Assembly: GCA_023248955.1 (NCBI GenBank)
Contig: JAHFDP010000045.1
Coordinates: 1-34,427, forward strand
DNA: 34,427 nucleotides
Direction of reading: 5' to 3'
Origin: Deltaproteobacteria bacterium
Lineage (GTDB): Bacteria; Myxococcota; Myxococcia; Myxococcales; JAHFDP01
Below the pieces are notes generated by a model. That model was not told the origin of the DNA. It saw nothing but the letters and a program-made list of their open reading frames with translations, and searched no databases. The first letter of the stretch is position 1, and each line of letters opens with the position of its first letter. Shown in pieces: positions 4,266 through 32,799 of the stretch. Position numbers and translations under genes: made by a program.

Positions 4266-5405
4266 GTGGGTGAACAACGCTACATCGATCCGGCTGTCCG
4301 CGAGGCACTGGCCGGCAAGAAAATGGCCTTCATTGGAGGGCCGCGTCAGGTCGGGAAAACGACCTTCGCGCTCGGGCTCATTGGTCCGACGCCAGACGAG
4401 CGGCACCCGGCTTACCTGAACTGGGATAGCCCACGATCCGCGTCGCAACTGCGACGGGCCGAGCTGCCGCCGGGCCAATCGACGCTCATTTTCGATGAGA
4501 TTCACAAATACGCGCGCTGGCGAAACCTGGTCAAAGGGATTTACGACACCGAAAAATCCCACCGAAAAATCATCGTCACCGGGTCGGCCCGGCTCGACTA
4601 CTACCGAAAAGGTGGCGATTCGCTCGCCAACCGGTATCGCTATTTTCGCCTCCATCCCTTTTCGCTCCGCGAAATGAACGCCACGCCTTCGCGCTCCGAT
4701 CTCGATCGGCTGATGCGATTTGGCGGATTTCCCGAGCCACTCTTTCGTGGTGATGAGTCCACCCATCGCATTTGGCAACGCGACCGCCTCTCTCGCGTGG
4801 TGCGCGAAGACCTGCGAGACCTCGAATACGTTCGCGAAATTAGTCTCGTGGAACACCTGGTCGATTTGCTGCCTGACAAAGTCGGCTCGCCGCTCTCCGT
4901 CAAAAGCCTGCGCGAAGACCTCCAGGTCGATCACAAGACCGCCGAGCGTTGGCTGCAAATCCTCGAAAACTTGTACGTCTGTTTTCGCGTTTCCCCGTAC
5001 GGCGCGCCGCGGGTCAGGGCCGTCAAAAAGGAGCGCAAGCTCTACCTGTGGGACTGGTCAGCAGTGCAGGATCCGGGACCACGCTTCGAAAACTTGGTCG
5101 CCTCGCAGCTCCTCAAGTATTGCCACTGGGTTGAGGACACCGAGGGATTTCGAATGGAGCTGCGGTTCTTGCGCGATACGGACGGACGCGAGCTCGACTT
5201 CGTGGTTCTCAAGGACGGAAAGCCGGCGTTTGCCGTCGAGTGCAAAACCGGCGAGCGCGGCGTGGCGCGGTCGGCTTTGTACTTCAGCGAACGCACGGCC
5301 ATTCGCCGCATCTATCAAGTGCACCTCGGCGATCGTCACTTCGAAACCGGGCCGGTGACGGTCGTGCCGTTCGCGCGGTTCTGCCACGACCTTCGGCTTG
5401 TGTGA
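4266..5405 (+). CDS. AAA ATPase with C-terminal DUF4143 domain (first copy)
   Basis: This 379-residue protein belongs to the widespread COG1373 type: AAA_14 ATPase, a central winged-helix-like segment and a C-terminal DUF4143 domain. Walker A is GGPRQVGKTT (K31), Walker B is LIFDE (D77-E78) and the sensor segment is VTGSARLD. A helix-turn-helix-like stretch lies near residues 213-240 (LREDLQVDHKTAERWLQ). The C-terminus keeps a D...ExK pattern (ELDFVV then AVECKTG), as in PD-(D/E)xK nuclease folds. The biological role of this family is poorly understood. The start is GTG, because the reading frame has no ATG that fits the family N-terminus. It heads an islet with a toxin-antitoxin pair and a second, divergent family member. 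Confidence 0.88.
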   Translation: MGEQRYIDPAVREALAGKKMAFIGGPRQVGKTTFALGLIGPTPDERHPAYLNWDSPRSASQLRRAELPPGQSTLIFDEIHKYARWRNLVKGIYDTEKSHRKIIVTGSARLDYYRKGGDSLANRYRYFRLHPFSLREMNATPSRSDLDRLMRFGGFPEPLFRGDESTHRIWQRDRLSRVVREDLRDLEYVREISLVEHLVDLLPDKVGSPLSVKSLREDLQVDHKTAERWLQILENLYVCFRVSPYGAPRVRAVKKERKLYLWDWSAVQDPGPRFENLVASQLLKYCHWVEDTEGFRMELRFLRDTDGRELDFVVLKDGKPAFAVECKTGERGVARSALYFSERTAIRRIYQVHLGDRHFETGPVTVVPFARFCHDLRLV

Positions 5406-5426
5406 CTTGCTGCGCGAGAGGAGGTA

Positions 5427-5461
5427 TTGCATCAAAATGCTTTCTTGTTACACTTTGATGC
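5427..5461 (+). promoter_or_regulatory. Toxin-antitoxin promoter with operator-like inverted repeat
   Basis: GCATCAAA (5429-5436) and TTTGATGC (5454-5461) are perfect 8-bp inverted arms separated by 17 bp; allowing one mismatch, the arms extend to 11 bp. They overlap a possible promoter, TTGCAT (5427-5432), 16-nt spacer, TACACT (5449-5454), whose -10 box ends 7 nt before GTG 5462. Type II antitoxins usually repress their own operon by binding such repeats, so this is the likely operator. Confidence 0.55.
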
Positions 5462-5707
5462 GTGCGAACAACGCTGGCCATCGACACGGACCTTCTCCGG
5501 CTGCTCAAACAGCGCGCCGCCAAGGAGGGCCGAACGCTTCAGTCTCTGGTCAACGACCTCCTCCGGCAATCCGCGTCCAAGCCGACGAAGAAGACCTTCA
5601 AGCTGAAATGGCGCACTTGGAAAACCCATCTTCAGCCGGGCGTTGAGCTCGACGATCGCGACAAGCTCTACGATCTCTTGGATGGTCCCCGTGGTTTTCC
5701 TCGATGA
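5462..5707 (+). CDS. Ribbon-helix-helix antitoxin (VapB-type)
   Basis: This 81-residue protein starts RTTLAIDTDLLRLLKQRAAKEGRTLQSLVNDLLRQ, a classic ribbon-helix-helix DNA-binding fold: one short strand and two helices over residues 2-37. The tail, with lysine/tryptophan-rich and acidic segments, would wrap the toxin. The start is GTG 5462; an ATG at 5458 is in another frame. Its TGA overlaps the ATG of the PIN toxin by 4 nt, the standard antitoxin-first arrangement. It should neutralise the toxin and repress the operon. The subfamily is not certain from sequence alone. Confidence 0.8.
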   Translation: MRTTLAIDTDLLRLLKQRAAKEGRTLQSLVNDLLRQSASKPTKKTFKLKWRTWKTHLQPGVELDDRDKLYDLLDGPRGFPR

Positions 5708-6141
5708 TTGCCGTCGACACGAACATTCTCGTGTACGCCGCGATCGACAGCGGCAGGCACCATGCGGCCGCGCGCGCGCTGGTCACCGAGCTGGCCGAGG
5801 GAAGCTTGCCTTGGGCCATTCCCTGGCCGTGCGTCTATGAATTTTTTCGTGTGGTGACCCACGCACGCTTTAGCCAACCGCCGGTTCCGCTCGCCATCGC
5901 GCGCGCCAATATCGCTGCTTTGATGCAGTCTCCGCTGTTGTCGCTGCTCTCCGAAACCAGCCGGCACGAGAAGGTGCTCGAGGCTGTTTTGGATGAGTCT
6001 CCGGTCACGGGAAATCTTCTCTTTGACGCGCACATCGTTGCGCTCTGTCGAGAGCACGGCGTGAGTGAGCTGCTCTCGACGGATGGAGATTTCACGCGCT
6101 TTCGCGGACCGAAAGTGACGCATCCGTTTCGGGCTGATTAG
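5704..6141 (+). CDS. PIN-domain toxin ribonuclease (VapC-type)
   Basis: This 145-residue protein is a complete PIN domain. VDTNILVYA gives the first acidic residue (D5), YEFFRVV the second (E46), LLFDAHIVALCREHG the third (D108) and LLSTDGDFTRF the fourth region (D127/D129). All metal-binding acids are present, so the nuclease should be active. VapC toxins cleave tRNA or rRNA at specific sites until the antitoxin is degraded. The ATG overlaps the antitoxin stop by 4 nt. The gene ends 13 nt before the convergent end of the second DUF4143 ATPase. The PRxVTHPF-like C-terminus is common in this subgroup. Confidence 0.88.
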   Translation: MIAVDTNILVYAAIDSGRHHAAARALVTELAEGSLPWAIPWPCVYEFFRVVTHARFSQPPVPLAIARANIAALMQSPLLSLLSETSRHEKVLEAVLDESPVTGNLLFDAHIVALCREHGVSELLSTDGDFTRFRGPKVTHPFRAD

Positions 6142-6153
6142 GCAGCCTTCAGC

Positions 6154-7320
6154 TCAATCTCCCCACTTGATCTTCTGAATATCTTTCCACGGAATCACCT
6201 CGACGCCGCTCCGCTTGTGCGCCGAATCGCCGCCGTAAATTAGTCGCCGAGCCGCTGGCGGTGGGCGGAATTCAATTTCCCGCAAGCCCGTGAAAAAATC
6301 ATCGGCGATGGTCTGCCCTGACTTCGCCTCGACCAGCGTCACCTCCGCCGGCCGCTCGACGACCAGGTCGATCTCGGCACCGCGCGTCTGCCGCAGATGG
6401 GACAGATTCGGCGTGAGTCCCCGGTGCACGCGGCTCTTGTAAATTTCGGCCGCCACCCAACTTTCGAAGATGGCGCCTCGGTGCGGGTGCGTCACCAGCT
6501 CTCTGGGTTCACGAATGCCGAGCAGGTGGCAAGCGAGTCCGCTGTCGAAAAAATGCAGCTTGGGTGCTTTGACGAGCTGCTTCTTAAAATTGCGGTGCCA
6601 CGCCGGAACGCGAAAACAGATGAAGCTCGCCTCGAGCACGGAAATCCAGGCGCGCGCGGTGTTGTGAGAAACCCCCGCATCCCCGCCGAGATCCGAGAGG
6701 TTGATTTCCTGCCCGGTGCGTCCGGCGCAGAGGCGCAAGAATGTGGTGAAGGCGTTTAGGTCGGTGACGTTGAGCGTCTGGCGAACGTCGCGCTGAATGT
6801 AGGTGGTGACGTAGTCGGCGAGCCAGCGCGCGGCGGGAATTTTGCGGTCGAAGATAGGCGGGTAGGATCCAGACCAGAGCGTCTCGAAGAGATCCGTTGG
6901 CGCATTGGGAAATCGCTGCAACTCGTCGAGGCTCGGCGGCAAGAGGTGCAACACGCCCACGCGACCGGCCAGTGATTCCGAGATGCGTGCGGAAAGGCCA
7001 AAGTGCTGCGAGCCGGTAAGAATGAAGCGGCCAGGCTTGGGGTTGGTGTCGACTTCGGCCTGCAGATACGAAAAGAGATCGGGAACGTTTTGCGCTTCGT
7101 CGATGATGGCGCCGTCGGGGTAGGACGCGAGAAATCCGCGCGGATCGGATGACGCCCGGGCGCGTGTGTCGAGCGGTTCGAGCGAGACGTAGGGCTTTCT
7201 CGGAAAGGTGAGTTGGCAGAGCGTCGTCTTGCCCGACTGGCGCGGGCCCGTGACAGTAACGACCGGGTAAAAGGTCGCTACCTTGCGCAGATACGACGTG
7301 AGGTCGCGCGGGACCGGCAT
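6154..7320 (-). CDS. AAA ATPase with C-terminal DUF4143 domain (second copy)
   Basis: This 388-residue protein has the same architecture as the ATPase at 4266-5405 but little sequence identity with it, so it is not a local duplicate. Walker A is [10 protein letters not shown] (K31), Walker B is AIIDEAQN (D74-E75) and the sensor segment is [16 protein letters not shown]-type residues follow ([11 protein letters not shown]). A helix-turn-helix-like stretch near residues 208-232 includes [10 protein letters not shown]. The C-terminal DUF4143 region keeps a D...ExK pattern (EIDLVV then LVEAKSG). It is convergent with the toxin gene and divergent from dnaJ. A perfect 21-bp palindrome stands 6 nt before its ATG. 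Confidence 0.9.
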
Positions 7321-13639: not shown

Positions 13640-14485
13640 GTGTTCCTCTTCGCGGCCACCGTTGCCACCACTTGGCTGGCCGGTGGTGCCGCTTACAGCG
13701 TAGCCGTCATGACGATTCTGCTCTGCCACGAAATGGGTCACTACGTGCTCGCCCGCCGACACGGCGTCGACGCCTCGTTGCCGTTCTTCATTCCGCTGCC
13801 GTTCCTCTCGCTCTTCGGCACCATGGGCGCGGTCATCGTGATGCGCTCGCGGCTCTCCACGCGCGAGGCCGTCGTCGACATCGGCGCGGCGGGGCCGCTG
13901 GCGGGCGCGCTGGTGGCAATTCCGCTGACGTTGTGGGGCTTGCATCTCTCAACGTGGGTGTCGCCGGAAATTCCGCGCGCGGTGTTTGGACACGGGCTTT
14001 GGAGCGCGATCTCGCAGCTGGTCGGTCGTGCGCCATTTCGCGCATCGCACGCCTTGATCCCCGTCGAATACCACTCGATGCTCTTTGCGCTGCTCGCGAA
14101 AATCGCACTGCCCGCGCGTCCGCCGGGTACGGAAATTCTGCTGCACCCGATGGCCTGGGCCGGTTGGGTAGGGCTCTTCGTGACCAGCCTCAATCTCTTG
14201 CCCATCGGCCAGCTCGACGGCGGCCACGTGGCCTATGCGCTCTTTGGGCCGCGCGGGCACCGGTTGATTGGACGCGCCGCCATAACGATACTTATTATAT
14301 TATCTTTAGTTTCGTTCGCCGGCTGGCTCTTGTGGGCGCTGATCGCCTGGAAGCTGGTGGGCACGCGCCACCCGCCGATCGACGCGCCCGAACGGCCACT
14401 GGATTTGAGACGGCGTCTGATCGGGCTGGCGAGCCTGGTCCTGCTCATTTTGACGTTTCTTCCGAACCCGCTGGAGCTGGGTTAA
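13640..14485 (+). CDS. M50 family membrane metalloprotease (site-2 protease type)
   Basis: This 281-residue polytopic membrane protein carries zinc motif HEMGH (residues 30-34) in its second membrane segment and NLLPIGQLDGGH near residue 190, the NPDG-like second metal motif of site-2 proteases. The LPFFIPLPF...GTMGAVI segment is typical of the soluble-domain-free M50 subgroup. These enzymes cut membrane-embedded substrates. The frame has no ATG near the beginning; GTG 13640 starts inside the first predicted membrane helix. The reading frame is open upstream to 13580 without a normal start, so the true N-terminus is uncertain. Its stop overlaps that of the first calpain-like gene. Confidence 0.85.
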   Translation: MFLFAATVATTWLAGGAAYSVAVMTILLCHEMGHYVLARRHGVDASLPFFIPLPFLSLFGTMGAVIVMRSRLSTREAVVDIGAAGPLAGALVAIPLTLWGLHLSTWVSPEIPRAVFGHGLWSAISQLVGRAPFRASHALIPVEYHSMLFALLAKIALPARPPGTEILLHPMAWAGWVGLFVTSLNLLPIGQLDGGHVAYALFGPRGHRLIGRAAITILIILSLVSFAGWLLWALIAWKLVGTRHPPIDAPERPLDLRRRLIGLASLVLLILTFLPNPLELG

Positions 14486-15570
14486 TTTCCCCCACCCTGA
14501 CCCTCCCCCGCAGAGGGGGGAGTGGAATGGTTCAGCTGTCCAGACACATCAAGCCAATTGAAGAGCAGCGTAAATTTCTCGAGCGGCAATTCAAAAGTCG
14601 CGCCTTCGCTTTCGGGAGACTTTCGATGCCGCTCGCCAAAGGGATTGCGGAGCAACACGTAACGTTGTCCGTGACGCTCGTAGGCGCCGAAAACGCTGTA
14701 GGCGTGACCGCCGGTAATCAGATCGTTCGCGATGCGCAGCGACCCGTTGTTTCGCAACAGGCGCGTGGCGCGCGCGGACTGAACGCGCTCGTGAAGTTTG
14801 AGCGCCCTCATCGAAACGGAGCTGGCATCGACCAGGCGGCCTTCCGCGAGTGCGCGCTGAATGCGGGTGTAGGTCACGAACGCGCTCTCTCGCGTCGCCT
14901 CGATGGTGTGATGCGAGGCCCAGATGCCGGTTAGCGCTTCCATCACGCGCCAGGCGTGACCGCCGTCGATGCGATCCCAACCGGTTCGCCAACGCTCGTA
15001 ACGCGACGGCTCGATCTCGAGGCGTTGTGAGGTACCGTAAAATTTGTCGTTCCAAACCGCGAACGCTTTTTCGAGCGCCACGACCCAGAGTTTCTGATCC
15101 GCGACGCGCGCAAAAATCGGACGGCCCTTTCTGTCGACCGGAATTTTCGTGGTGATGGGCGCCAAGTCGCGCACGAAGTCGCCGTAGTCGTCTTCGCGGT
15201 AAAACATCGCCTGCACGCGCCCAGCGCTGTCCAGCGCGAGGGTGCCGTCGTCGTTGCGCGCGAAAAGTCCCTTGATCAAATCGGGATTGGCGCGCGCCAG
15301 CGAACTAACCGTCGCCAGAAAATAACAGTCACCGAGGGTGCCTTGCAGGACGTCATCGGGATGCGGTCCTTTCCCGAAGAGCGTGTGCTCGTCGAAGCGT
15401 GAGAGACCCTTCAGCGCCTCGTACCGCGGTTCGCGTTTCAGCAATTTTGGTGTGAGCAGAAGGCCCGGCTCGCCAGACTGGTGGAGCGTCTTCAGACCGA
15501 AATTTGGCCGTTCGCGAATCGGCGCGCCGGCGGCCACGATCAGCGCCAGCGCGAGGTGCAGCACGCCCAT
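14482..15570 (-). CDS. Secreted calpain-like (C2 family) cysteine protease, copy 1
   Basis: This 362-residue protein has an N-terminal signal peptide (MGVLHLALALIVAAGA). The calpain core is clear: QGTLGDCYFLATVSSLA has the oxyanion glutamine and catalytic C82, GGHAYSVFGA has H289 and LLRNPFGE has N309. ALEKAFAVWN is another conserved calpain segment. No EF-hand or C2 domain is fused. It lies 5 nt after copy 2 on the same strand, so the two are probably cotranscribed. The last 14 residues (STPPSAGEGQGGGN) are encoded by a GC-rich hairpin repeat and are absent from copy 2. The stop codon overlaps the M50 stop by 4 nt. Substrate is unknown. Confidence 0.85.
   Translation of the reverse strand: MGVLHLALALIVAAGAPIRERPNFGLKTLHQSGEPGLLLTPKLLKREPRYEALKGLSRFDEHTLFGKGPHPDDVLQGTLGDCYFLATVSSLARANPDLIKGLFARNDDGTLALDSAGRVQAMFYREDDYGDFVRDLAPITTKIPVDRKGRPIFARVADQKLWVVALEKAFAVWNDKFYGTSQRLEIEPSRYERWRTGWDRIDGGHAWRVMEALTGIWASHHTIEATRESAFVTYTRIQRALAEGRLVDASSVSMRALKLHERVQSARATRLLRNNGSLRIANDLITGGHAYSVFGAYERHGQRYVLLRNPFGERHRKSPESEGATFELPLEKFTLLFNWLDVSGQLNHSTPPSAGEGQGGGN
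14489..14524. repeat. GC-rich hairpin repeat, copy A
   Basis: CCCACCCTGACCCTCCCCCG followed by CAGAGGGGGGAGTGG forms a stem of C-rich and G-rich arms. The CACCCTGACCCTCCCCCG half is identical to copy B at 16708. It lies inside the 3' end of the first calpain-like gene and encodes its C-terminal tail. Confidence 0.7.
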
Positions 15571-15575
15571 GGAAA

Positions 15576-16610
15576 TTAGGCGCTGGTCGGCGCGCCGCTG
15601 CCCGCAACGTCGAGCGCGTGGAACAGGAGGACGAATTTTTCGATCGTTAGATCGAACGTTCCGCTTCCTCGATCGAGGTGGTGACGGTAGCCCCAGGGAT
15701 TGCGCAGCTTGATGTAGCGCTGGCCATCCTCCTCGAACGCGTCGAGCACGGTGTAGGCGTGGTTGCCGACGATGTGGTCCGCGGGAAGATGCAGCGGTTC
15801 GTTGGAACTGACCAGGTTGCTCGTGCGTGCGGTCTTCACGCGTTCGTAGAGCTGCATGGCTTTGACGGCCACGGAGTCGGCAGCCACCATGCGCCCGTCC
15901 GCAACCGCCTGGTGAATGCGGTCATACGCCGTCTGCGCACTCGCCGGATCAGCGTTCAACTTGACGTGCTCCGCGGGGACGCCCGTGAGCGCCTCCATCA
16001 CGACATGCGGCCAGCCTCCGGAGATGCGATTCCAGCCTTTTTTGGCGTACTTTTTTTTCGTCCGTTGAGGCGTATTGGGAAATCGATCGTTCCAGACGGC
16101 GTAGGCTTTTTCGAGCGACGCGACCCAGAGTTTCTCGTCGACAATCTTCGCGAACAGCGGGATTCCGTTCTTGTCGACGGGAATCTCCGCGGTGATGGGC
16201 ACTACGTCGCGAACGTGGCCACCGCCATCGGTACGGCGATAGAACATCACCTGCGCGCGACCGTCGCCATCGAGCGCGAGCGTGCCGTCGAGATTTCGCG
16301 CAAAGAGACCCTTGAGCGATTCCGGATCGGCATGCGCGTAGGCGCTAAGCGTGGCGAGGAAGTAGCAGGTGCCCAGGCTGCCCTGCCGAACATCATCGGG
16401 GAGCGGTCGCGGACCGTCCCAGAGCGACCGGGCGTTGAATCGCGCGAGATCCTTGATCGCCTCGTAACGTGGTTCTCGTTTCGAAAGCTTCGGTGTGAGG
16501 ACGAGGCTCGGTTCTCCAGCCTTGTGCAGGGTCGGAAGTCCTTTTTGCGGGGATTCGCTGGATGTCGCGGCGAGGAGAAACGGGAAGAGCAGCAGGGAGG
16601 CGAGGCGCAT
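15576..16610 (-). CDS. Secreted calpain-like (C2 family) cysteine protease, copy 2
   Basis: This 344-residue protein is a clear paralogue of copy 1 along its whole length, sharing for example KREPRYEA, DGTLALD and VWND. It has a signal peptide (MRLASLLLFPFLLAATS). C82 lies in QGSLGTCYFLAT, H284 in GNHAYTVLDA and N304 in KLRNPWGYR. The residue before the catalytic cysteine is threonine, where calpains and copy 1 have aspartate (GDC). A lysine-rich loop (RTKKKYAKKGW) is encoded by an A8 tract. GAGAGG lies 2 nt before the ATG, slightly close for a ribosome-binding site. It is first of the two-gene unit. The catalytic triad suggests an active enzyme, but the D-to-T change leaves some doubt. Confidence 0.84.
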   Translation of the reverse strand: MRLASLLLFPFLLAATSSESPQKGLPTLHKAGEPSLVLTPKLSKREPRYEAIKDLARFNARSLWDGPRPLPDDVRQGSLGTCYFLATLSAYAHADPESLKGLFARNLDGTLALDGDGRAQVMFYRRTDGGGHVRDVVPITAEIPVDKNGIPLFAKIVDEKLWVASLEKAYAVWNDRFPNTPQRTKKKYAKKGWNRISGGWPHVVMEALTGVPAEHVKLNADPASAQTAYDRIHQAVADGRMVAADSVAVKAMQLYERVKTARTSNLVSSNEPLHLPADHIVGNHAYTVLDAFEEDGQRYIKLRNPWGYRHHLDRGSGTFDLTIEKFVLLFHALDVAGSGAPTSA

Positions 16611-23337: not shown

Positions 23338-23462
23338 CGGCGCAACCGCCTCTGTTTGATTTCGATTCTTTACAGCGAAGCTTCGTGGCTATTCCGACAT
23401 TCGTTCAAAGAAAGAGCCTCGCCGACCGCGATCGCCAATGGCCGCGCGGTATGGGCGTGTGC

Positions 23463-24455
23463 ATGAACGGCCGCCGACCCGCCAGCGCACTCGTGCTCGT
23501 GCTCCTCGCGATCGCGTCCATGGCCCAGGCCGGCGTCCGGCGCTCTGTTCGTTCGGCGCACCTACGACCGGAAGAGCCTCTTGTTTCCGTACGCGTTCGG
23601 CCCAAGCGGGGGCTGCGCGATCAACTCGCCAGAGGCACGCTGATCGGCGAAATCGTCAATGACGAAGCCGTGGCAATGAAGGCGACCAATGCGTCGTCGA
23701 TTGTGACCTTGCATCTGCCGCGCGGGATGTTGCGCAAAGTCATTTTCAAACCGAAGAGCGGAGAAAAGGACGCGGGCCACGGTATTGCCGTCGGCACCTT
23801 CTACCGGCGCGAGATCGCCGTGTCGCAACTGGATGAAGCCCTTTCCTTGAACCTCGTTCCGACGACAGTTGAACTTACCGGCAAGCAGGGTATCGGCTCG
23901 GCGCAGCTCTTTTCGGACCGGTCCACGCTTGCTACGCGGGTTGATCCGAAAAAAATCTCGCTCGATCGAGTCTCGGCGGAAAAGCTGCGCGCGTTTGATT
24001 ATCTGATCGGAAATTCCGACCGCTCTTGGCGGAATCTGATGGTCAAAAAGTCAAGAGGCGTCTACCTGCCGGTGGCCATCGACAACGGCTACACGCTACC
24101 GACGGCGGTTCCCGCGCGATTTCTCTGGCCGCATTCGCTGCTGCGGGGTCAGGTCGGTCCGCTGACCAGCGAGGCCAAGCAGTTCATAGCAGCGATCGAT
24201 CCCCAGCGCGTCGCTCGGGTGCTGATTGAGGCTGGAATCGAACGCAAGGCCGTGGTCCAGGTGTTGCGCCGGCTTGCGCATCTCCAAACGGATCCGAGTT
24301 TTCTCGAAATCAGGCGGCCAGGTTGGGGGCCGTATCAGATGACGCTAGCGGTGGAGAAGCAGATCAAAAATCGAACGCAAGGCCTTTCGGCGGAGCAGCT
24401 GAAGGAGATCGAGCGAATCGTTCGCACGGCAGCCGCGGAGGCTGTTGTCGACTGA
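23463..24455 (+). CDS. Secreted PI3/4-kinase-like protein
   Basis: This 330-residue protein has a signal peptide (MNGRRPASALVLVLLAIASMAQA) followed by a kinase fold of the bacterial PI3/4-kinase-related type. VIFKPKSGE supplies the ATP-binding lysine (K96 or K98). FYRREIAVSQLDEAL supplies the helix glutamate, followed by the VPTTVEL...GIGSAQLF strands. FDYLIGNSDRSWRNLMV is the catalytic loop (D186, N191) and VAIDNGY the metal-binding aspartate (D207). All catalytic residues are present. Export of such a kinase is unusual. GTG 23385 and ATG 23451 are alternative in-frame starts; ATG 23463 gives the cleanest signal peptide. It stands alone, convergent with the GNAT gene. Confidence 0.7.
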   Translation: MNGRRPASALVLVLLAIASMAQAGVRRSVRSAHLRPEEPLVSVRVRPKRGLRDQLARGTLIGEIVNDEAVAMKATNASSIVTLHLPRGMLRKVIFKPKSGEKDAGHGIAVGTFYRREIAVSQLDEALSLNLVPTTVELTGKQGIGSAQLFSDRSTLATRVDPKKISLDRVSAEKLRAFDYLIGNSDRSWRNLMVKKSRGVYLPVAIDNGYTLPTAVPARFLWPHSLLRGQVGPLTSEAKQFIAAIDPQRVARVLIEAGIERKAVVQVLRRLAHLQTDPSFLEIRRPGWGPYQMTLAVEKQIKNRTQGLSAEQLKEIERIVRTAAAEAVVD

Positions 24456-27054: not shown

Positions 27055-27128
27055 TGGTTGGGGCGCAGGGATTCGAACCCCGATAAAGGGCTTCAAAGGC
27101 CCTTGTCCTGCCGTTAGACGACGCCCCA
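27055..27128 (-). tRNA. tRNA-Gln (anticodon UUG)
   Basis: Read on the minus strand, the acceptor TGGGGCG pairs with CGCCCCA, followed by A73 and an encoded CCA (27057-27055). The anticodon stem AGGGC/GCCCT encloses CTTTGAA, giving anticodon TTG for CAA glutamine codons. The T-arm is CGGGG-TTCGAAT-CCCTG. U1-A72 is characteristic of bacterial tRNA-Gln. Total length is 74 nt. No integrase or att-like repeat lies next to it. Confidence 0.95.
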
Positions 27129-27209: not shown

Positions 27210-27228
27210 ATCGGTCCATATGACCGAT
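27210..27228. promoter_or_regulatory. Palindrome at the start of the pseudopilin cluster
   Basis: ATCGGTC, CATAT, GACCGAT has perfect 7-bp inverted arms and overlaps the ATG at 27227. If the true start of the first TadE-like gene is GTG 27263, the palindrome would lie at -35 to -53 and could be an operator for the five-gene cluster. Confidence 0.35.
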
Positions 27229-28033
27229 GGACGACACTGGCTACTTGCGGTCAAAATGCCTTGTGCCCTCTCCGTCTTCGCGCCAGCGAGGCCAGGCCAT
27301 CGTCGAAGCGGCCATCGCGCTGCCGATGATGCTGATGCTCATTCTTTGCATCCTTCAGCTCACGTTGATTCAGCAAGCGCGATTAATGACTTACTACGCG
27401 GCCTTCGTCGCTTGCCGCGCGGGCGTTGTTTACAGCGCCGACCACGATCATATGGAAGCTGCCGCGTTTATGGCGCTGCGGCCGACGTTAGGCGGCAAAC
27501 CGCCCCGGGATCTCTCGGCGTTCGGCGCCAATATGAAAGCAATCGAAGCGAAGAACACCCATTTCAAGACGCTGCTCGGTAATCCGCAGGTGCACGTCAA
27601 TGTCACCAGCCCGCGGCCCGAAGATTTTGCGAAGTGGGGCGGCCATTTGAAGAGCCAAGAAATCGACTTCGACGACGTTCGTCCGGGCGCGCAGGAAGCC
27701 ACCACGCTCTCGGTGAACCTCACCTATTACTACCGGATGAACATTCCCTTCGCGAACCGCCTGTTGCAAACGATTTGGCTCGCTGGCCACGCCGATACAC
27801 TCAAAAGATGGACGGGGTTTAACGCCGCGGCGCCGGCGCTCGACAAGAACAGTGGCCCCGCTGCGATCGATGCCGCGCGCAAGGCGGCAGCAGGTAAGGA
27901 CCTAGATGTTGATCTCAAGAAACTCGTCGCGGCAGGAAAAGCCAAAGCTCCCGACGGCGGATTCTATTTCCCGGTTCGAGCTACTTATTCAATGAAGATG
28001 CAATCCAACCCATTCAAGAAGAATATTCCTTAA
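27227..28033 (+). CDS. TadE-like pseudopilin
   Basis: This 268-residue protein has a prepilin-type N-terminus: a basic leader ending RG, then QAIVEAAIALPMMLMLILC, with glutamate at position 5 after the glycine (E27) and one membrane helix. The rest is an exported domain without recognised motifs. TadE proteins are processed by a prepilin peptidase and belong to Tad/Flp pilus or secretion systems. ATG 27227 is listed; GTG 27263 (MPSPSSRQRGQA) would give a more typical short leader. The TAA overlaps the next ATG by 1 nt (TAATG). It is first in a five-gene chain. Confidence 0.75.
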   Translation: MDDTGYLRSKCLVPSPSSRQRGQAIVEAAIALPMMLMLILCILQLTLIQQARLMTYYAAFVACRAGVVYSADHDHMEAAAFMALRPTLGGKPPRDLSAFGANMKAIEAKNTHFKTLLGNPQVHVNVTSPRPEDFAKWGGHLKSQEIDFDDVRPGAQEATTLSVNLTYYYRMNIPFANRLLQTIWLAGHADTLKRWTGFNAAAPALDKNSGPAAIDAARKAAAGKDLDVDLKKLVAAGKAKAPDGGFYFPVRATYSMKMQSNPFKKNIP

Positions 28034-30042
28034 TGCATTTTTTCCTGCGCCGACTCCGCCGTACCGAAGAGGGCCAAGCGCTGGTCCTGGCCGCCATTTG
28101 CGGGCTGATTCTCGCGGTGTGCGTCCTGGTAACGGTGCAGGTCGGGCATACCGTTTATCAGAAGATTCAATTGCAGGATGCCGCGGATAATGCCGCATTT
28201 AGTCAGGCCACGATGGAAGCGCGGGCCATGAATTTTATGGCGTACACGAACAGGGCGATGGTGGTGCATTACTGCTCAATGATGGTGTGGGTGAGCTGGA
28301 TTTCGTACTTGCGATCTTTGCTCGAACTGGTGATTACGGTCGCCGCGATCTTTAACCTAGCGCCGGGCATGGCGACCATCATGCAATCGTTCGCTCAAAT
28401 GGTGGAAAAGGCCATTGTAAAATTCGCGCAGGTCGTTTCTGTTGTCATTCCTGTGCTCGGTGTCGCGAATATGGTTCTGTATATGTTGCAATGGGCGATG
28501 CGTTACACAACCGTTTCCAGGATCTCCACAAAACCGCCCGAGCTTACCCATAGCGATAAGGACGTCCACGAGATCCCGGTTAACGGCCAATACCCCGGCC
28601 AAGTCAACGGCAAGGTTTTTCAGAATGCCTTTGACGAGCGTGCCGAAAAGGGGCTCGCCGAATCGATTGGCGGTCCGTTCGCTCCGGATTATGATCGCGA
28701 CCAGACGCAGCTTGCCCGCGGCGCGATAGTAGAGATTGCCAATGGAAGCCGCCACCGTTGGGTCGCGGACGGAAGCCCTAACTTCCCCATTCTTGGCCGG
28801 AAGTACGACATTAATTTCCTCATTCTTCGGATCAAGAAAACCGCATTTACCGAGATTGGAATGTGGCCCTCTAAACAGTTTATTCTCGGCATGCACGACG
28901 AGATTTTTTCTGATGACACTATCAAAATCGACCTCAATCTCCTCGTTATCAAAATGGGTGTCAGCGATAGCGTGAACATGCGCAGCGTCCTTAAGGTCGA
29001 CTATCCGGCGAAGATGAAAGAAATTTTGAATATGGGATTGAAGGACATCAGCAAAGACGCAGCTCAAGCAATCGACGCCATCCCCGGCAGTTCAGAAGAA
29101 ATGATGAAAGACATGCTGAAAGAGGCTGGGGTCTCCGCGGCTTTAGGGGGAGGCCTTACAAGTCTGATGGGCCTGCTCAAGCTCAAGCTTCCGCAAATTC
29201 CGGGGTTGGCCAAACTAAAGCAGGTTTCGCACATGAAGCTCGGCGATCTATTGCACGTGCCGGCCAACGGCGGCCCCGCTAATTGCACCCCCAACTGCAT
29301 TGGGCTACAGCAAAAAGTTACCCGCGGACCGTCATGCCAAATCCTGACCACGTGCGGCTACCAGGCTTGCTCGACAATCGCGCCTTCGGACAACCTTGTC
29401 TACGAGGCCGCGCTAAAGTTTTGCCACATCCCACCCACCCCATTTACAGCGTCGGTATGGTTTTGCATGTGTCCGGTGAGACTACTCCTAGACAAGGTAC
29501 CAGGTGAGGGCGGTACTATGCTGAAGTCTCTGCAAAGCCTGAACGTCTGGGCCGAGAACTTCAAGAAGCAGTCTGACAAGATGTTCAAGTCCGGGGCCTG
29601 GAGCACCATCTCCAACCTAGGCGTTTTTCTCGGTATCACGCCTTACGCAACGTTCAATCCGCAGGCCCATTGGTCCCCGCAGCCAGGCGAAAACCTCGGC
29701 AACTATGGCCAGCCAGACGTGCTGATTGCCGCCGGCAAAGACGACACGCATCTGATCTTCGCCAACTTCCTGAACAAGGTCGTCTACACGTTCGGTTCGC
29801 GAACAGGCTTTCTCGATTACGGAATGCATGAGAATGGCGGGGGCGTTGTTCCGGGATTAACGAGCGGCCTCAACGTCTATGCAGCGGCGGAATGTTACTA
29901 TCACCGTCCCGGTGCGTGGAGGGAGATGCCCAACCTTTTTAATCCACTCTGGGGAGCGAAGCTCATGCCCGTCGCGGAAAGCGAATCCGCTTTCCGGATC
30001 GGTCTCAATTCATCGCCCATTCGGGATCTCCTTCTGCACTGA
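28033..30042 (+). CDS. TadG-like pilus assembly protein
   Basis: This 669-residue protein starts with EEGQALVLAAICGLILAVCVLVTVQVGHTVYQK and continues with QLQDAADNAAFSQATMEARAMNF, the typical Tad/TadG N-terminal pattern. Unlike its neighbours, it lacks glutamate at +5 after the glycine (leucine instead), so it may not be processed as a prepilin. Three more hydrophobic stretches follow within residues 70-160. Residues about 415-485 contain eight or more cysteines (NCTPNC, SCQ, TCGYQAC, KFC, FCMC) and may form disulphides outside the membrane. It starts at ATG 28033, overlapping the preceding stop, and ends TGATG, overlapping the next gene by 1 nt. Confidence 0.7.
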   Translation: MHFFLRRLRRTEEGQALVLAAICGLILAVCVLVTVQVGHTVYQKIQLQDAADNAAFSQATMEARAMNFMAYTNRAMVVHYCSMMVWVSWISYLRSLLELVITVAAIFNLAPGMATIMQSFAQMVEKAIVKFAQVVSVVIPVLGVANMVLYMLQWAMRYTTVSRISTKPPELTHSDKDVHEIPVNGQYPGQVNGKVFQNAFDERAEKGLAESIGGPFAPDYDRDQTQLARGAIVEIANGSRHRWVADGSPNFPILGRKYDINFLILRIKKTAFTEIGMWPSKQFILGMHDEIFSDDTIKIDLNLLVIKMGVSDSVNMRSVLKVDYPAKMKEILNMGLKDISKDAAQAIDAIPGSSEEMMKDMLKEAGVSAALGGGLTSLMGLLKLKLPQIPGLAKLKQVSHMKLGDLLHVPANGGPANCTPNCIGLQQKVTRGPSCQILTTCGYQACSTIAPSDNLVYEAALKFCHIPPTPFTASVWFCMCPVRLLLDKVPGEGGTMLKSLQSLNVWAENFKKQSDKMFKSGAWSTISNLGVFLGITPYATFNPQAHWSPQPGENLGNYGQPDVLIAAGKDDTHLIFANFLNKVVYTFGSRTGFLDYGMHENGGGVVPGLTSGLNVYAAAECYYHRPGAWREMPNLFNPLWGAKLMPVAESESAFRIGLNSSPIRDLLLH

Positions 30043-31184
30043 TGCGCCAATTTAATCGCCAAGAGGGATCGGCCTTGACCGAGCTGGCCATTCTGGCACC
30101 GGTGCTCATCTTTATTGTTTTATGCAGTCAGGCTTTCACGGATGAGTGGATCGTGCGGCTCAAGGGCCAGGAGGCGACGCGGTTTGCGCTCTGGCAAACC
30201 ACCACGATGCAGGACAAAGGCGCCGTTTTGGCGGCGACGCAGGCGCGCTATGCCATGCTGCGCGGCGACGAACGCGCTGGCGTGACCCATGGCGATACCG
30301 GGCTGCTAACCTTTCCGGCGCGAGCAGGTGTCGGGGTCGACCCCAGTTCGTCGGTCGAGACGCATTTAAAGACGGAATTCCCAACCGTTTCCGTTCGTCC
30401 GCCTCCTGCACACGGCATTATTGGGGGCATTATTGGATTGTTCATGTCATTCTTTCAAAGTTGGGCCACCGGCGCGGTTCACCCGGCGCTGGATTTCTTC
30501 AAATTCGATCGCAATGGAACCGCCACGGCGCACGTTGACGTGTTTGCGCACGAGGCGCTCTTTCACCCGCTAGCGCAGCCGATCTTTGGCGTTGATTTCT
30601 CAGGGGCGGGGGCGGGGAATTTTCATTCGAGAGCCGAGCAGCAGGAATTGACCTACGATACCTGGAAGGCGTGGCCCTCTCCGTACCACATCCAGCACGA
30701 CCGCCCGTCCGAGGTTACCGATACCAGTGAATCACCGGCCGCCACCTATCACGTGGTTCAGCGCAACGTATCGACGCAAGTCAAGCATATGGTCTATTTC
30801 GGTGTGACAAACATTCCGCTGTTCGGTGTTGTCGTGTCGCTGATCGACGGCCTCTTCAGCAACGTGCTGGGGCTCCCGAGTCTCGTCAATACCCAGCACC
30901 TCAATGAAGAGGACCGCAGCGGCCCCATCGGCATTCACAAGGTGGATGAACTACGTAACCAGCACTATACGGTCCCCTATAAGATCAAGGTTGGCGCTTG
31001 GACCAGCGAGCCTGGACCCGGTAGTACCAGCGCGCATGGGTCGCCGATCAAGATGGCCAATAAGAATCCATACGTAGATAGCTACACCTGCCGTGGCGAT
31101 TTCTATCTCGGTGCGAAATCGGGCCAGGCTCCTGACGATAGTGGACCCAATTGGGGCGGGAAAAAATGGCGCGGGTGCAAGTGA
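30042..31184 (+). CDS. Second TadE-like pseudopilin
   Basis: This 380-residue protein starts MRQFNRQEGSALTELAILAPVLIFIVLC: a leader ending in G9, then SALTE with glutamate at +5, then one membrane helix. The large exported domain has no motif I recognise; it includes a hydrophobic, glycine-rich segment (IIGGIIGLFMSFFQSW). The start overlaps the TadG-like stop (TGATG). The 3' end overlaps the next gene by 19 nt. With its neighbours it probably forms minor pilus or secretion-complex subunits. Confidence 0.7.
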   Translation: MRQFNRQEGSALTELAILAPVLIFIVLCSQAFTDEWIVRLKGQEATRFALWQTTTMQDKGAVLAATQARYAMLRGDERAGVTHGDTGLLTFPARAGVGVDPSSSVETHLKTEFPTVSVRPPPAHGIIGGIIGLFMSFFQSWATGAVHPALDFFKFDRNGTATAHVDVFAHEALFHPLAQPIFGVDFSGAGAGNFHSRAEQQELTYDTWKAWPSPYHIQHDRPSEVTDTSESPAATYHVVQRNVSTQVKHMVYFGVTNIPLFGVVVSLIDGLFSNVLGLPSLVNTQHLNEEDRSGPIGIHKVDELRNQHYTVPYKIKVGAWTSEPGPGSTSAHGSPIKMANKNPYVDSYTCRGDFYLGAKSGQAPDDSGPNWGGKKWRGCK

Positions 31185-31930
31185 GGATCGTGCGCGCCAT
31201 TGGCGGCGTTGCGGGTGCTGCGACCATCGCCGCGGTCGGTCTTTGGGCCGGTGCGCCGGCTGCTTCCGACAATCCGCCCCCGGCACCGGCAGCGGGTATC
31301 GCGCCCTCGGGAAGCGACGCCGTCCGCTTAGGCGAAAACCATCGGATCGACGGCGCACCGATGCAAGTGGACGTCAGCATCGTCTCCGATCCGGCCCGCG
31401 AGGCGGTGGAATGGTACGCGCAGCAATGGCGTTCCGCGGGTATGAAGCCCTTCGTGACCGGTGAGAACAACATCTGGCACGCCTCGGTCTTCGACGAAAA
31501 AGACGGATTGCAACGCTCCATCACTGCCATTGGGCAACCCGATAACTCAACGCTGCTCATGCCGAGCGTCTCTAACCCGCGCCGTCCTGTCGACCTCTTG
31601 AACGCCGAGAAGCGCTCACCGGTACCCGTTCCGGCAGACAGTCGAATGTACCTGGACGATGAGGCGACCGATGACGGTACGCACGGTTATTCCGCGCAAT
31701 ACCTGACGCCGATGTCGCCTTCGGCGGCAACCGAGTTTTACGGGCGAGAGATGGCAGCCAAGGGTTGGGTCCTCTCCGCGCAAACCGCGGCAACCAAGAA
31801 AGGACCGGCGACGGTGACCTTCACGAAAAACAGCGCCCATTGCGAGGTTCAGGCGAGCCAACTGGACGACAAGAAGCCCGGGAGCCTCGTTTTCGTCGCC
31901 CTAGATTATCCCGAAGGGACCACGCTTTGA
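31166..31930 (+). CDS. Exported protein with two similar modules
   Basis: This 254-residue protein has an N-terminal signal or anchor (VRIVRAIGGVAGAATIAAVGLWAGAPAA) followed by a proline-rich linker. Two modules look related: one with AREAVEWYAQQWRSAGMKPF then a strand-rich tail, and one with AATEFYGREMAAKGWVLSAQ then VTFTKNSAHCEV. Each is a helix with a WY/FY-x-x-x-M/W pattern, a glycine turn, and strands. No family is recognised. ATG 31166 overlaps the previous gene by 19 nt; TTG 31151 is an alternative. Its TGA overlaps the next start by 4 nt (TTGA). Position suggests a role with the pseudopilins. Confidence 0.6.
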   Translation: MARVQVRIVRAIGGVAGAATIAAVGLWAGAPAASDNPPPAPAAGIAPSGSDAVRLGENHRIDGAPMQVDVSIVSDPAREAVEWYAQQWRSAGMKPFVTGENNIWHASVFDEKDGLQRSITAIGQPDNSTLLMPSVSNPRRPVDLLNAEKRSPVPVPADSRMYLDDEATDDGTHGYSAQYLTPMSPSAATEFYGREMAAKGWVLSAQTAATKKGPATVTFTKNSAHCEVQASQLDDKKPGSLVFVALDYPEGTTL

Positions 31931-32112
31931 TCGCGCGTTGGCGTCGAGCGCCCCGCGGTCAGGCGGCCACGGAGACGGTGCTTCTGGTCGCGTTGGGGCT
32001 CTGCGTTTTCGGAGGCGTCATGGCTGTCGCGCGTTTTAATCCGGACATGCTGAATGCGCTGACCAATTACCTGCGCGGGTACTATTACGTCCTCTCGCTG
32101 CCGGTTCCTTGA
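31927..32112 (+). CDS. Small prepilin-like (Flp/TadE-like) protein, TTG start
   Basis: This 61-residue protein is easy to miss because it starts with TTG. The sequence begins MIARWRRAPRGQAATETVLLVALG: a basic leader ending in G11, then QAATE with glutamate at +5 and a single membrane helix, as in Flp-type major pilins and TadE proteins. The short C-terminus has NYLRGYYYVLSLPVP. The TTG overlaps the stop of the previous gene by 4 nt. It ends exactly where the convergent gene at 32113 ends. Size and form suggest a major Flp-like pilin or a very short minor pilin. Confidence 0.68.
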   Translation: MIARWRRAPRGQAATETVLLVALGLCVFGGVMAVARFNPDMLNALTNYLRGYYYVLSLPVP

Positions 32113-32799
32113 TTACTCGCCGCTTCCTGGATCGATATCTGGCGTCGCACCAGCACGACCGCTGCCGACGAGCACCACCGTTTGTCTGCCGCGTTCGATC
32201 TTGACGAGGCCGAAGAGCGGAACATCGTGCGAGTACCAGGCTGTTTCGGGCAGACTTCCGGCATGTACGAGGCGCTCCGCCCTGAATTTGCCAGCGGGCA
32301 CCTCCACGGTCTCTGCAGGGCTCCGCTTGATCTTTACATCTGAGCGCAGGGGTCGCGGCAGGACAACTTCGATACCGAGCCCTAGGAGTGGAATCTCCAG
32401 TGCGGCCTGGCCCGCGTGCTTGAGGAGGAGCCGTTCGATCCGCTTCGGCTGCGTGGGATCGCCCCTAAAGAGCCCGAGAATGGTCAAGCCTCCAACGATG
32501 TAGTTCGCACGAACCTCGAACCAGAGCCGATCGTCCTTGAAGGACGGCGGCACCACTGCGAACCGCACGCGCAAAGGATGCTGTTCATCCGTTGGTCCAC
32601 CGACGAGTTGGTACTCGGCCCAGCTTCCGACCGTCGTGTCTGGCGCGCCCCAAGCCGCCTGCATTTCGGGCGGGACCACGTGGCTGACCATGAGGCGGAA
32701 TTCATCGTCCGGCTCGTTTGCGGAGGGGCCCTTTGCCATCTTCGCCGGCGTCGCCGCGAGGCATAATGCCGCCACCAGGATGCGCGCTGTCACTCTCAT
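32113..32799 (-). CDS. Exported protein of unknown function
   Basis: This 228-residue protein has a signal peptide (MRVTARILVAALCLAATPA). The mature part is rich in beta strands, including GSWAEYQLVGG, VRFAVVPPSFKDDRLWFEV and VEVPAGKFRAERLVHAG, ending PETAWYSHDVPLFGLVKIERG. The VPAGKF...AWYSxDVPLFGLVK pattern resembles periplasmic beta-barrel DUF3108-like or LolA-like proteins that bind lipids or hydrophobic ligands, but I cannot assign it firmly. Its stop abuts the stop of the small prepilin gene. Its start overlaps the start of the plus-strand gene at 32780 by 20 nt. Confidence 0.6.
   Translation of the reverse strand: MRVTARILVAALCLAATPAKMAKGPSANEPDDEFRLMVSHVVPPEMQAAWGAPDTTVGSWAEYQLVGGPTDEQHPLRVRFAVVPPSFKDDRLWFEVRANYIVGGLTILGLFRGDPTQPKRIERLLLKHAGQAALEIPLLGLGIEVVLPRPLRSDVKIKRSPAETVEVPAGKFRAERLVHAGSLPETAWYSHDVPLFGLVKIERGRQTVVLVGSGRAGATPDIDPGSGE

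Follow-up and report, generated by a model that had tools for sequence, protein, structure and literature searches.

A stand-alone pilin cluster of a Myxococcota bacterium, very probably the tip of a Kil-type Tad pilus, with two conserved companion genes

The closest described relatives of the locus analysed here belong to the Kil system of Myxococcus xanthus, in which a heterotrimer of the minor pilins KilL, KilM and KilN is modelled at the pilus end (PMC12075869); in the available part of that source, tip function, the role of the adapter and prey killing are shown or modelled in M. xanthus only. Tip1-3 of this species, published in 2025, are encoded in clusters away from the core, and killing through them requires a type III secretion system (T3SS), whereas Tip4 kills without it, lysis still being T3SS-dependent (PMC12075869). 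Among the Kil features given in the accessible part of PMC8460266 are a KilF ATPase fused to an FHA domain, an abundance of FHA proteins and the division of the core between two clusters. Here we analyse a gene cluster that very probably encodes the tip of its own bacterium's Kil-type Tad pilus, a function that we infer for this organism. It is of the stand-alone Kil Tip type, a kind already published in 2025; the new points are two conserved companions (genes 4 and 6 of Table 1) and a single-Tip, T3SS-free setting.

The window, i.e. the whole stretch of DNA that was analysed, is an entire contig (C93) of 34,427 bases, and the cluster lies in its interior with unrelated genes on both sides: glgA and a tRNA-Gln(UUG) gene on one, an rsmB-like gene (named by eye) further down on the other. 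An earlier note, made from the letters of this stretch, had described five overlapping genes; all their frames are intact on the + strand, and the junctions are those it gave, namely TAATG at 28031-28035, TGATG at 30040-30044, a 19-nt overlap at 31166-31184 and TTGA at 31927-31930. A sixth, convergent gene belongs to the same module. Judged from their sequences, genes 1-5 match a Kil Tip gene for gene, with the order KilM-KilN-KilL, an unnamed exported protein and an Flp adapter.

Table 1. Features of the cluster and its borders, with positions in the window
Feature	Position	Strand	Description	Basis
gene 1	27227-28033	+	268 aa, KilM-type (TadE-like) minor pilin	TadE 1e-5, position, Tip homology
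gene 2	28033-30042	+	669 aa, KilN-type (TadG-like) large tip pilin	
gene 3	30042-31184	+	380 aa, KilL-type (TadE/F-like) minor pilin	profile match to relatives
gene 4	31166-31930	+	254 aa from ATG, Tip-associated exported or anchored protein	
gene 5	31927-32112	+	61 aa from TTG, Flp-like adapter minor pilin, KilK/KilO type	
gene 6	32113-32799	-	228 aa, convergent exported protein, predicted LolA/RseB-like fold	
tRNA-Gln(UUG)	27055-27128	-	cluster neighbour, outside the system	context
7-bp inverted repeat	27210-27228	.	overlaps gene 1 start codon	chance level

The TadE match of gene 1 is joined in gene 2 by matches to Tad (9.6e-5) and TadE (1.1e-4), and genes 4 and 5 have no Pfam match. Gene 3, which the earlier note had called a second TadE-like gene, is of the KilL type by the profile of its relatives, though its own TadE match (0.085) misses the Pfam cut-off. 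The cluster thus holds three adjacent TadE/F/G-like prepilins, of which the large middle one carries an extra variable domain. Prepilin-like sites are found in gene 1 (G/QAIVE), gene 2 (G/QALVL), gene 3 (G/SALTE) and gene 5 (G/QAATE). Genes 1, 3 and 5 have a glutamate at +5; gene 2 does not, and neither does any of the 17 sequences in its alignment, which carry Leu or Ile instead. GspK, the tip-most pseudopilin of type II secretion, typically lacks Glu5 as well. The middle part of gene 2 is variable, and its C-terminal motif YYHRPG-W-E-PN-FNP-W is conserved and intact in the window.

Homology to the Myxococcus KilL, KilM and KilN proteins is weakest for gene 3, and gene 5 corresponds to the KilK/KilO-type Flp adapter. 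In a pairwise comparison with the Tip proteins of loci L178-L184 only, the M. eversor loci L185-L187 being left out, the best match of all six genes is the stand-alone cluster of M. eversor (L183), at a modest level of similarity. Gene 1 is 33% identical to its counterpart there (3e-36) and 27% identical to that of the M. xanthus Tip adjoining KilB/G/H (L178; 3e-25). Gene 3 matches L183 (7e-17, 24% identity), L178 (3e-10) and L182 (2e-6), with nothing significant against L180 or L181. Gene 5 is 42% identical to its L183 counterpart (5e-10), 34% to the KilO-like Flp of L180 (6e-6) and 31% to the KilK-like Flp of L178 (0.003), so that by pairwise score it is nearer the KilO-like than the KilK-like adapter. 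Genes 2, 3 and 4 score closer to Tip4 than to Tip3, gene 1 about equally.

These comparisons place the window set beside three described arrangements. In M. xanthus strain AM003, the genome compared, locus L178 reads g1 g2 g3 g4 g6 g5 KilB KilG KilH FHA and fits, by counting, mxan_4660 (KilM4), 4659 (KilN4), 4658 (KilL4), 4657, 4656 and 4655 (KilK) as numbered in the available text of PMC12075869. Tip4 and KilK (mxan_4655-4660) thus comprise the same six genes, with the five Tip genes in the same order; they stand directly before KilB-KilG-KilH, with gene 6 on the same strand between genes 4 and 5, whereas the window set is unlinked to the core and its gene 6 is convergent. Locus L180 can be taken as Tip3 because its 59-aa Flp fits KilO (mxan_1150); as in the window, g1-g2-g3-g4 are followed by a short terminal Flp adapter and the core is absent from the stretch, but gene 6 was not found in L180 and the two are distant in the tree. 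The stand-alone Tips of M. eversor, Corallococcus and Pyxidicoccus share the order of the window, in most cases with a convergent gene 6, and have no core gene in the stretch. This type is probably the 'fifth type of Tip' mentioned in the available text of PMC12075869. M. eversor has further Tips and two T3SS gates, as opposed to the one Tip found, and the gate not found, in the genome of the window. With canonical TadE/TadF/TadG the window genes have in common the prepilin N-termini and the Pfam TadE/Tad matches. Canonical Tad loci hold core and tip genes together, unlike this genome, where they lie on different contigs.

M. xanthus AM003 also has a lone KilN gene (L179:2872-5037) that shares 70% identity with KilN of L178; neither gene 1 nor gene 3 has a match beside it. 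This lone gene does not seem to be included in the 14 minor pilins (KilN1-4) listed in the available text of PMC12075869. Copies of gene 2 stand alone in L062 and L134 as well.

The absence of a TadA ATPase and of TadB/C from the window, as first noted, is borne out, since the T2SSE and T2SSF matches of the genome all lie outside it, and the search for a Tad core elsewhere, which had been proposed as a check, is successful. One strand of contig C87 carries a Peptidase_A24 protein of 152 aa (KilA), a 487-aa secretin with T2SS-T3SS_pil_N (KilC), an unrelated-looking membrane protein, an FHA+T2SSE ATPase of 582 aa (KilF) and a double-FHA protein. Contig C56 carries RcpC/CpaB (KilB), two single-domain T2SSF proteins (KilG and KilH), the only adjacent pair of this kind in the genome, and an FHA protein. 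Kil clusters I and II have this same gene content in the available text of PMC12075869, which also gives 97 aa for KilP of M. xanthus. The KilP candidate on C41 has 95 aa (88 from the first ATG), resembles the 97-aa M. xanthus protein by eye, and has an Flp match of 27.5 bits, below the Pfam cut-off of 32.2. The genome therefore contains KilA, KilB, KilC, KilF with FHA, KilG and KilH, together with a KilP that is sub-cut-off and recognised by eye, and these are not arranged as a single canonical Tad locus: the core is on C56 and C87, the pilin on C41 and the tip on C93. The KilG protein is 50-65% identical to its match in each of 37 other genomes (E <= 1e-80).

With the core on other contigs of the same genome, the description of the set as an orphan is wrong, and that of a new Tad-like apparatus is unsupported, given that Tip1-3 of M. 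xanthus likewise lie away from the core (PMC12075869, available text). What remains of the earlier interpretation is the apparatus tip, which was right in kind: the genes are homologous to those of the minor pilins in Kil Tips. The window cluster is the only TadE-type set found in the genome: at E <= 1 the only TadE matches are its own three, and the searches with gene 2 and gene 4 each return a single place. A second Tip may have escaped, because the assembly is a draft (116 contigs, 95.6% complete) and the TadE profile is weak, giving E 0.07 for gene 3 itself.

Relatives of gene 2 are found, among the matches listed, in 41 of 60 genomes of the same order, its own included. A wider scan of 84,980 species gave 130 relatives; among the best 80, from 78 loci, the named matches are mostly assigned to Myxococcota or 'delta', with Myxococcus, Corallococcus, Pyxidicoccus and Archangium among them. 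Combining the named loci with M. xanthus, M. eversor and the window, and dropping the duplicates L112, L140, L083 and L122, yields 87 clusters, in which gene 1 is present in 82, gene 3 in 80, genes 4 and 5 in 66 each and gene 6 in 39. The conserved co-occurrence of the five genes, for which a search had been suggested, is confirmed: the order g1-g2-g3-g4-g5 recurs in Myxococcota, including another family. Whether the same genes are a routine part of a Tad locus in relatives, the finding named beforehand as the one that would overturn the earlier view, has a divided answer, as KilB, KilG or KilH lies in the same stretch in 21/87 clusters and KilA, KilC or KilF in none (stretches up to 20 kb).

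Trees of genes 1-3 were computed for the 77 clusters (of 87) in which all three are present, and again for 36 hand-picked from these 77. In the 36-row tree, the window groups with eight metagenome loci (95/83), then with L104 (100/99) and L105 (93/85), and the next join is to the Myxococcaceae stand-alone Tips with L099 and L133 (89/94). Outside the stand-alone type are the Tip4 group (100/100) and the M. xanthus Tips L180-L182, long branches being flagged. Forcing the 18 stand-alone rows without L105 into one clade is 5.6 log units worse (AU p = 0.061), a result that neither rejects nor establishes such a clade. In the window, as in L049, L051, L052, L053 (in opposite orientation) and L056, a tRNA-Gln(UUG) gene lies no more than about 110 bases from the start chosen for gene 1; in L050 the distance is 1.3 kb. 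Loci L049-L053 and L056 are all from family f7. It was not found at L054, L055, L057, L060, L061, L067, L183, L091, L178 or L180-L182; L054, L055 and L067 among these likewise belong to f7, and the L054 contig ends inside gene 1. The shared neighbour suggests that the cluster has been passed down in one chromosomal position ever since the two families diverged. The cluster has a G+C content of 57.4%, against 62.8% in its surroundings; this deficit of about 5 points was considered as a sign of horizontal gain and rejected, because 13 other clusters vary similarly, from 1 point above to 7 below their own surroundings, and the low value therefore carries little information.

A record named 'Comamonas sp. 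KCTC 72670' (L108) has a Myxococcus-type Tip4 with KilB/G/H inside the Myxococcus clade, and the Comamonas-named record (L108, L134) is probably a mislabelled or mixed genome. In Candidatus Auribacterota, outside Myxococcota, L157 and L159 hold TadE/TadG-like sets matching KilN patterns, in L157 as a tandem pair.

Gene 4 of the window has no Pfam family, and its own family shows scattered weak Pfam matches in one or two of 54 members. Its structural model (pLDDT 88.9) begins with a helix at the N-terminus, after which come two helix-grip-like β-α-β-β-β-β domains in tandem. Foldseek gives a best E of 0.0067; the second domain aligns with PA1624 (Z 10.6, rmsd 3.1, 102 aligned), and START-, PsbP- and BamC-like rows are weaker. 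We take these matches as the common helix-grip arrangement and not as kinship, and an identity through PDB sequences was likewise rejected (best E 0.031, the best stretch being the N-terminal part). In the 60 genomes, a search scoring at most 44 candidates per genome places the gene 4 profile at at least 93 sites, 83/93 of them within 6 kb of a typed KilN. Conversely, of the 97 KilN places typed among the matches listed (the rows that mark KilN places, with C-terminal-half rows left out except that of G015), 84 have gene 4 no more than 6 kb away. The other 10 of the 93 gene 4 places are on contigs without a nearby typed KilN, three of them weak rows of family f5, and some of the 13 KilN places without gene 4 are contig ends or lone KilN genes.

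In M. xanthus AM003, all four of the KilLMN clusters that were found carry their own copy of gene 4, the lone KilN of L179 has none, and in M. eversor five of six clusters have it, the second Tip of L185 being without. Since there is usually one gene 4 per Tip, these distributions suggest a Tip-specific rather than a core function. The gene is not indispensable everywhere, because some Corallococcus-type stand-alone Tips do without it: in L058 and L059 genes 3 and 5 abut and leave no space for it. No gene 4 was found in L094 and L096 either.

The placement of gene 6 varies with the setting of the Tip. Among the 87 clusters it is convergent behind gene 5 in 20, on the Tip strand in 19 and not found in 48; KilB/G/H are in the stretch in 13/19 of the Tip-strand cases and in none of the 20 convergent ones, the window included. 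The model (pLDDT 80.5, residues 1-38 mostly below 50) is a half-barrel resembling RseB (Z 10.2, rmsd 4.0, 151 aligned), MucB (9.6) and LolA (7-8), so the predicted structure places gene 6 in the LolA/RseB class at the level of the fold. The top Foldseek row is a Parabacteroides lipoprotein (E 2.2e-4), and an assignment to DUF3108 was dropped, this family touching one of 33 members (0.013). A second, weaker relative of gene 6 adjoins the convergent one in M. eversor (L183:13661-14296), and likewise in L084, L092, L101 and L106. Genes 4 and 6 appear to be undescribed among the companions of Kil Tips: in a literature check by gene number only, mxan_4656 and mxan_4657 are absent from the main texts of PMC12075869 and PMC8460266 in their available parts.

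Tip genes and a strong KilG match mostly occur in the same genomes. With the KilG of this genome as query, a match at E <= 1e-40 is found in 39 of 60 genomes, 38 of which have Tip genes; the single exception (G041) is 74% complete. Strong KilG is present in 38 of the 41 Tip-bearing genomes, and Tip matches occur in three of the 21 genomes without it, i.e. G015 (96% complete), G019 (69%) and G024 (86%). All 18 genomes of family f5 are without Tip matches and without a KilG match at E <= 1e-40, and because the pattern is mostly this one phylogenetic contrast, the co-occurrence supports, and does not prove, a functional linkage.

The needleless T3SS* that in Myxococcus forms a predation machine with Kil was not found in this genome: the export gate family PF00771, which covers flagellar FlhA too, has no match in it (95.6% complete); M. 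xanthus AM003 and M. eversor have two matches apiece. No gate was detected in 18 of the 41 Tip-bearing genomes among the 60 searched, the present one included; 16 of these 18 have strong KilG, and 12 reach a completeness of 90% or more with contamination of 5% or less. The f7 genomes G006 and G023 have one gate each. The Kil pilus may thus often work without the needleless T3SS, and a T3SS-free form of it seems to occur naturally, which would agree with an activity like that of Tip4.

The most serious alternative to a Kil tip, though a rather unlikely one, is that the cluster forms the tip of an ordinary adhesive Tad pilus, with the same anatomy but with attachment or biofilm formation in place of prey killing. 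TadEFG tips have been proposed for Tad pili generally (PMC12075869, available text), and the lack of a detectable T3SS gate fits such a pilus, as M. xanthus needs the T3SS for prey lysis and for killing through Tip1-3. Against this, M. xanthus Tip4 kills without T3SS, the window Tip groups with Kil Tips, and the core has the Kil traits of an FHA-fused KilF, a short KilA, further FHA proteins and a split arrangement. It is very improbable that the cluster serves another filament, be it a type IVa pilus, type II secretion or a second Tad-like motor using the lone CpaF-like ATPase of C81 (L044:9725-10909), which has no Tad gene recognisable by eye within 20 kb. Of 11 T2SSE matches in the genome ten are above the cut-off, some adjoining pseudopilin- or PilT-like genes by eye; yet only C56 has an adjacent single-domain T2SSF pair, only the ATPase of C87 adjoins a secretin and a short peptidase, and strong KilG accompanies the Tip in nearly all Tip-bearing genomes. 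That the cluster is a decaying, functionless leftover, as its solitary position and low G+C might hint, is hardly credible in view of frames that are all open with tight overlaps, an order conserved in another family and in several genomes also beside tRNA-Gln, an intact C-terminal motif in gene 2, and its being the only Tip found in the genome.

Based on the Kil reading of the cluster, we propose the following mechanism. The KilM-, KilN- and KilL-type prepilins would enter the inner membrane and be cut by the short KilA-like peptidase, after which the products of genes 1-3 would bundle through their N-terminal helices and form a heterotrimer with the variable domain of gene 2 as its crown. 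This crown would be joined to a filament of the KilP-like pilin by the Flp-like protein of gene 5, and on contact with a target cell the FHA-KilF ATPase, with KilG and KilH, would extend the filament through the KilC secretin. Gene 4 might supply a membrane-anchored factor, specific to the Tip, for assembly or docking, and the gene 6 product might assist in the periplasm by binding lipids or lipoproteins. We put forward, tentatively, that Kil Tips include genes 4 and 6 as components so far overlooked, with gene 4 as a dedicated docking or assembly factor in the choice of Tip, and that this lineage has a minimal natural predation pilus of one Tip, one core and no T3SS, for which Tip- or pilus-borne killing suffices; this is possible rather than probable. 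With the tip assignment, an apparent orphan becomes part of a known contact-killing machine, and the case shows how such parts can be recognised in draft genomes. It also raises two questions for Myxococcus: why do most Tips bring their own gene 4, and is a single-Tip Kil pilus without T3SS a complete killer? If such a pilus kills, the T3SS-independent killing by Tip4 gains natural counterparts in the 16 of 60 genomes that have a Tip and strong KilG and no gate.

The palindrome that the earlier note had placed at the cluster start is present with perfect 7-bp arms, but such repeats occur at chance level, with 30 in the window against 26 +/- 7 in order-1 Markov sequences. Its core, CGGTC-N5-GACCG, is found in 21 of 201 loci, three of them (L009, L077 and L078) representing the stretch of the window itself; the kil-core loci of the same genome (L043, L080, L189) contain no exact copy. 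As an operator it was rejected: with up to 2 mismatches the window has a single match, and 21 of 100 shuffles have at least one. Because the repeat count is at chance and the core loci have no match, we put no weight on it.

Elsewhere in the window, positions 14482-16610 of the - strand encode two tandem exported cysteine proteases of the calpain family (Peptidase_C2; 362 and 344 aa), whose N-terminal parts look alike by eye. The gene at 23385-24455 (+) has a borderline match to a PI3/PI4-kinase domain (2.9e-6; 27.8 bits against a cut-off of 27.1). At 4266-7320, two AAA_14/DUF4143 ATPase genes surround a small gene and a PIN-domain gene that resemble a toxin-antitoxin pair.
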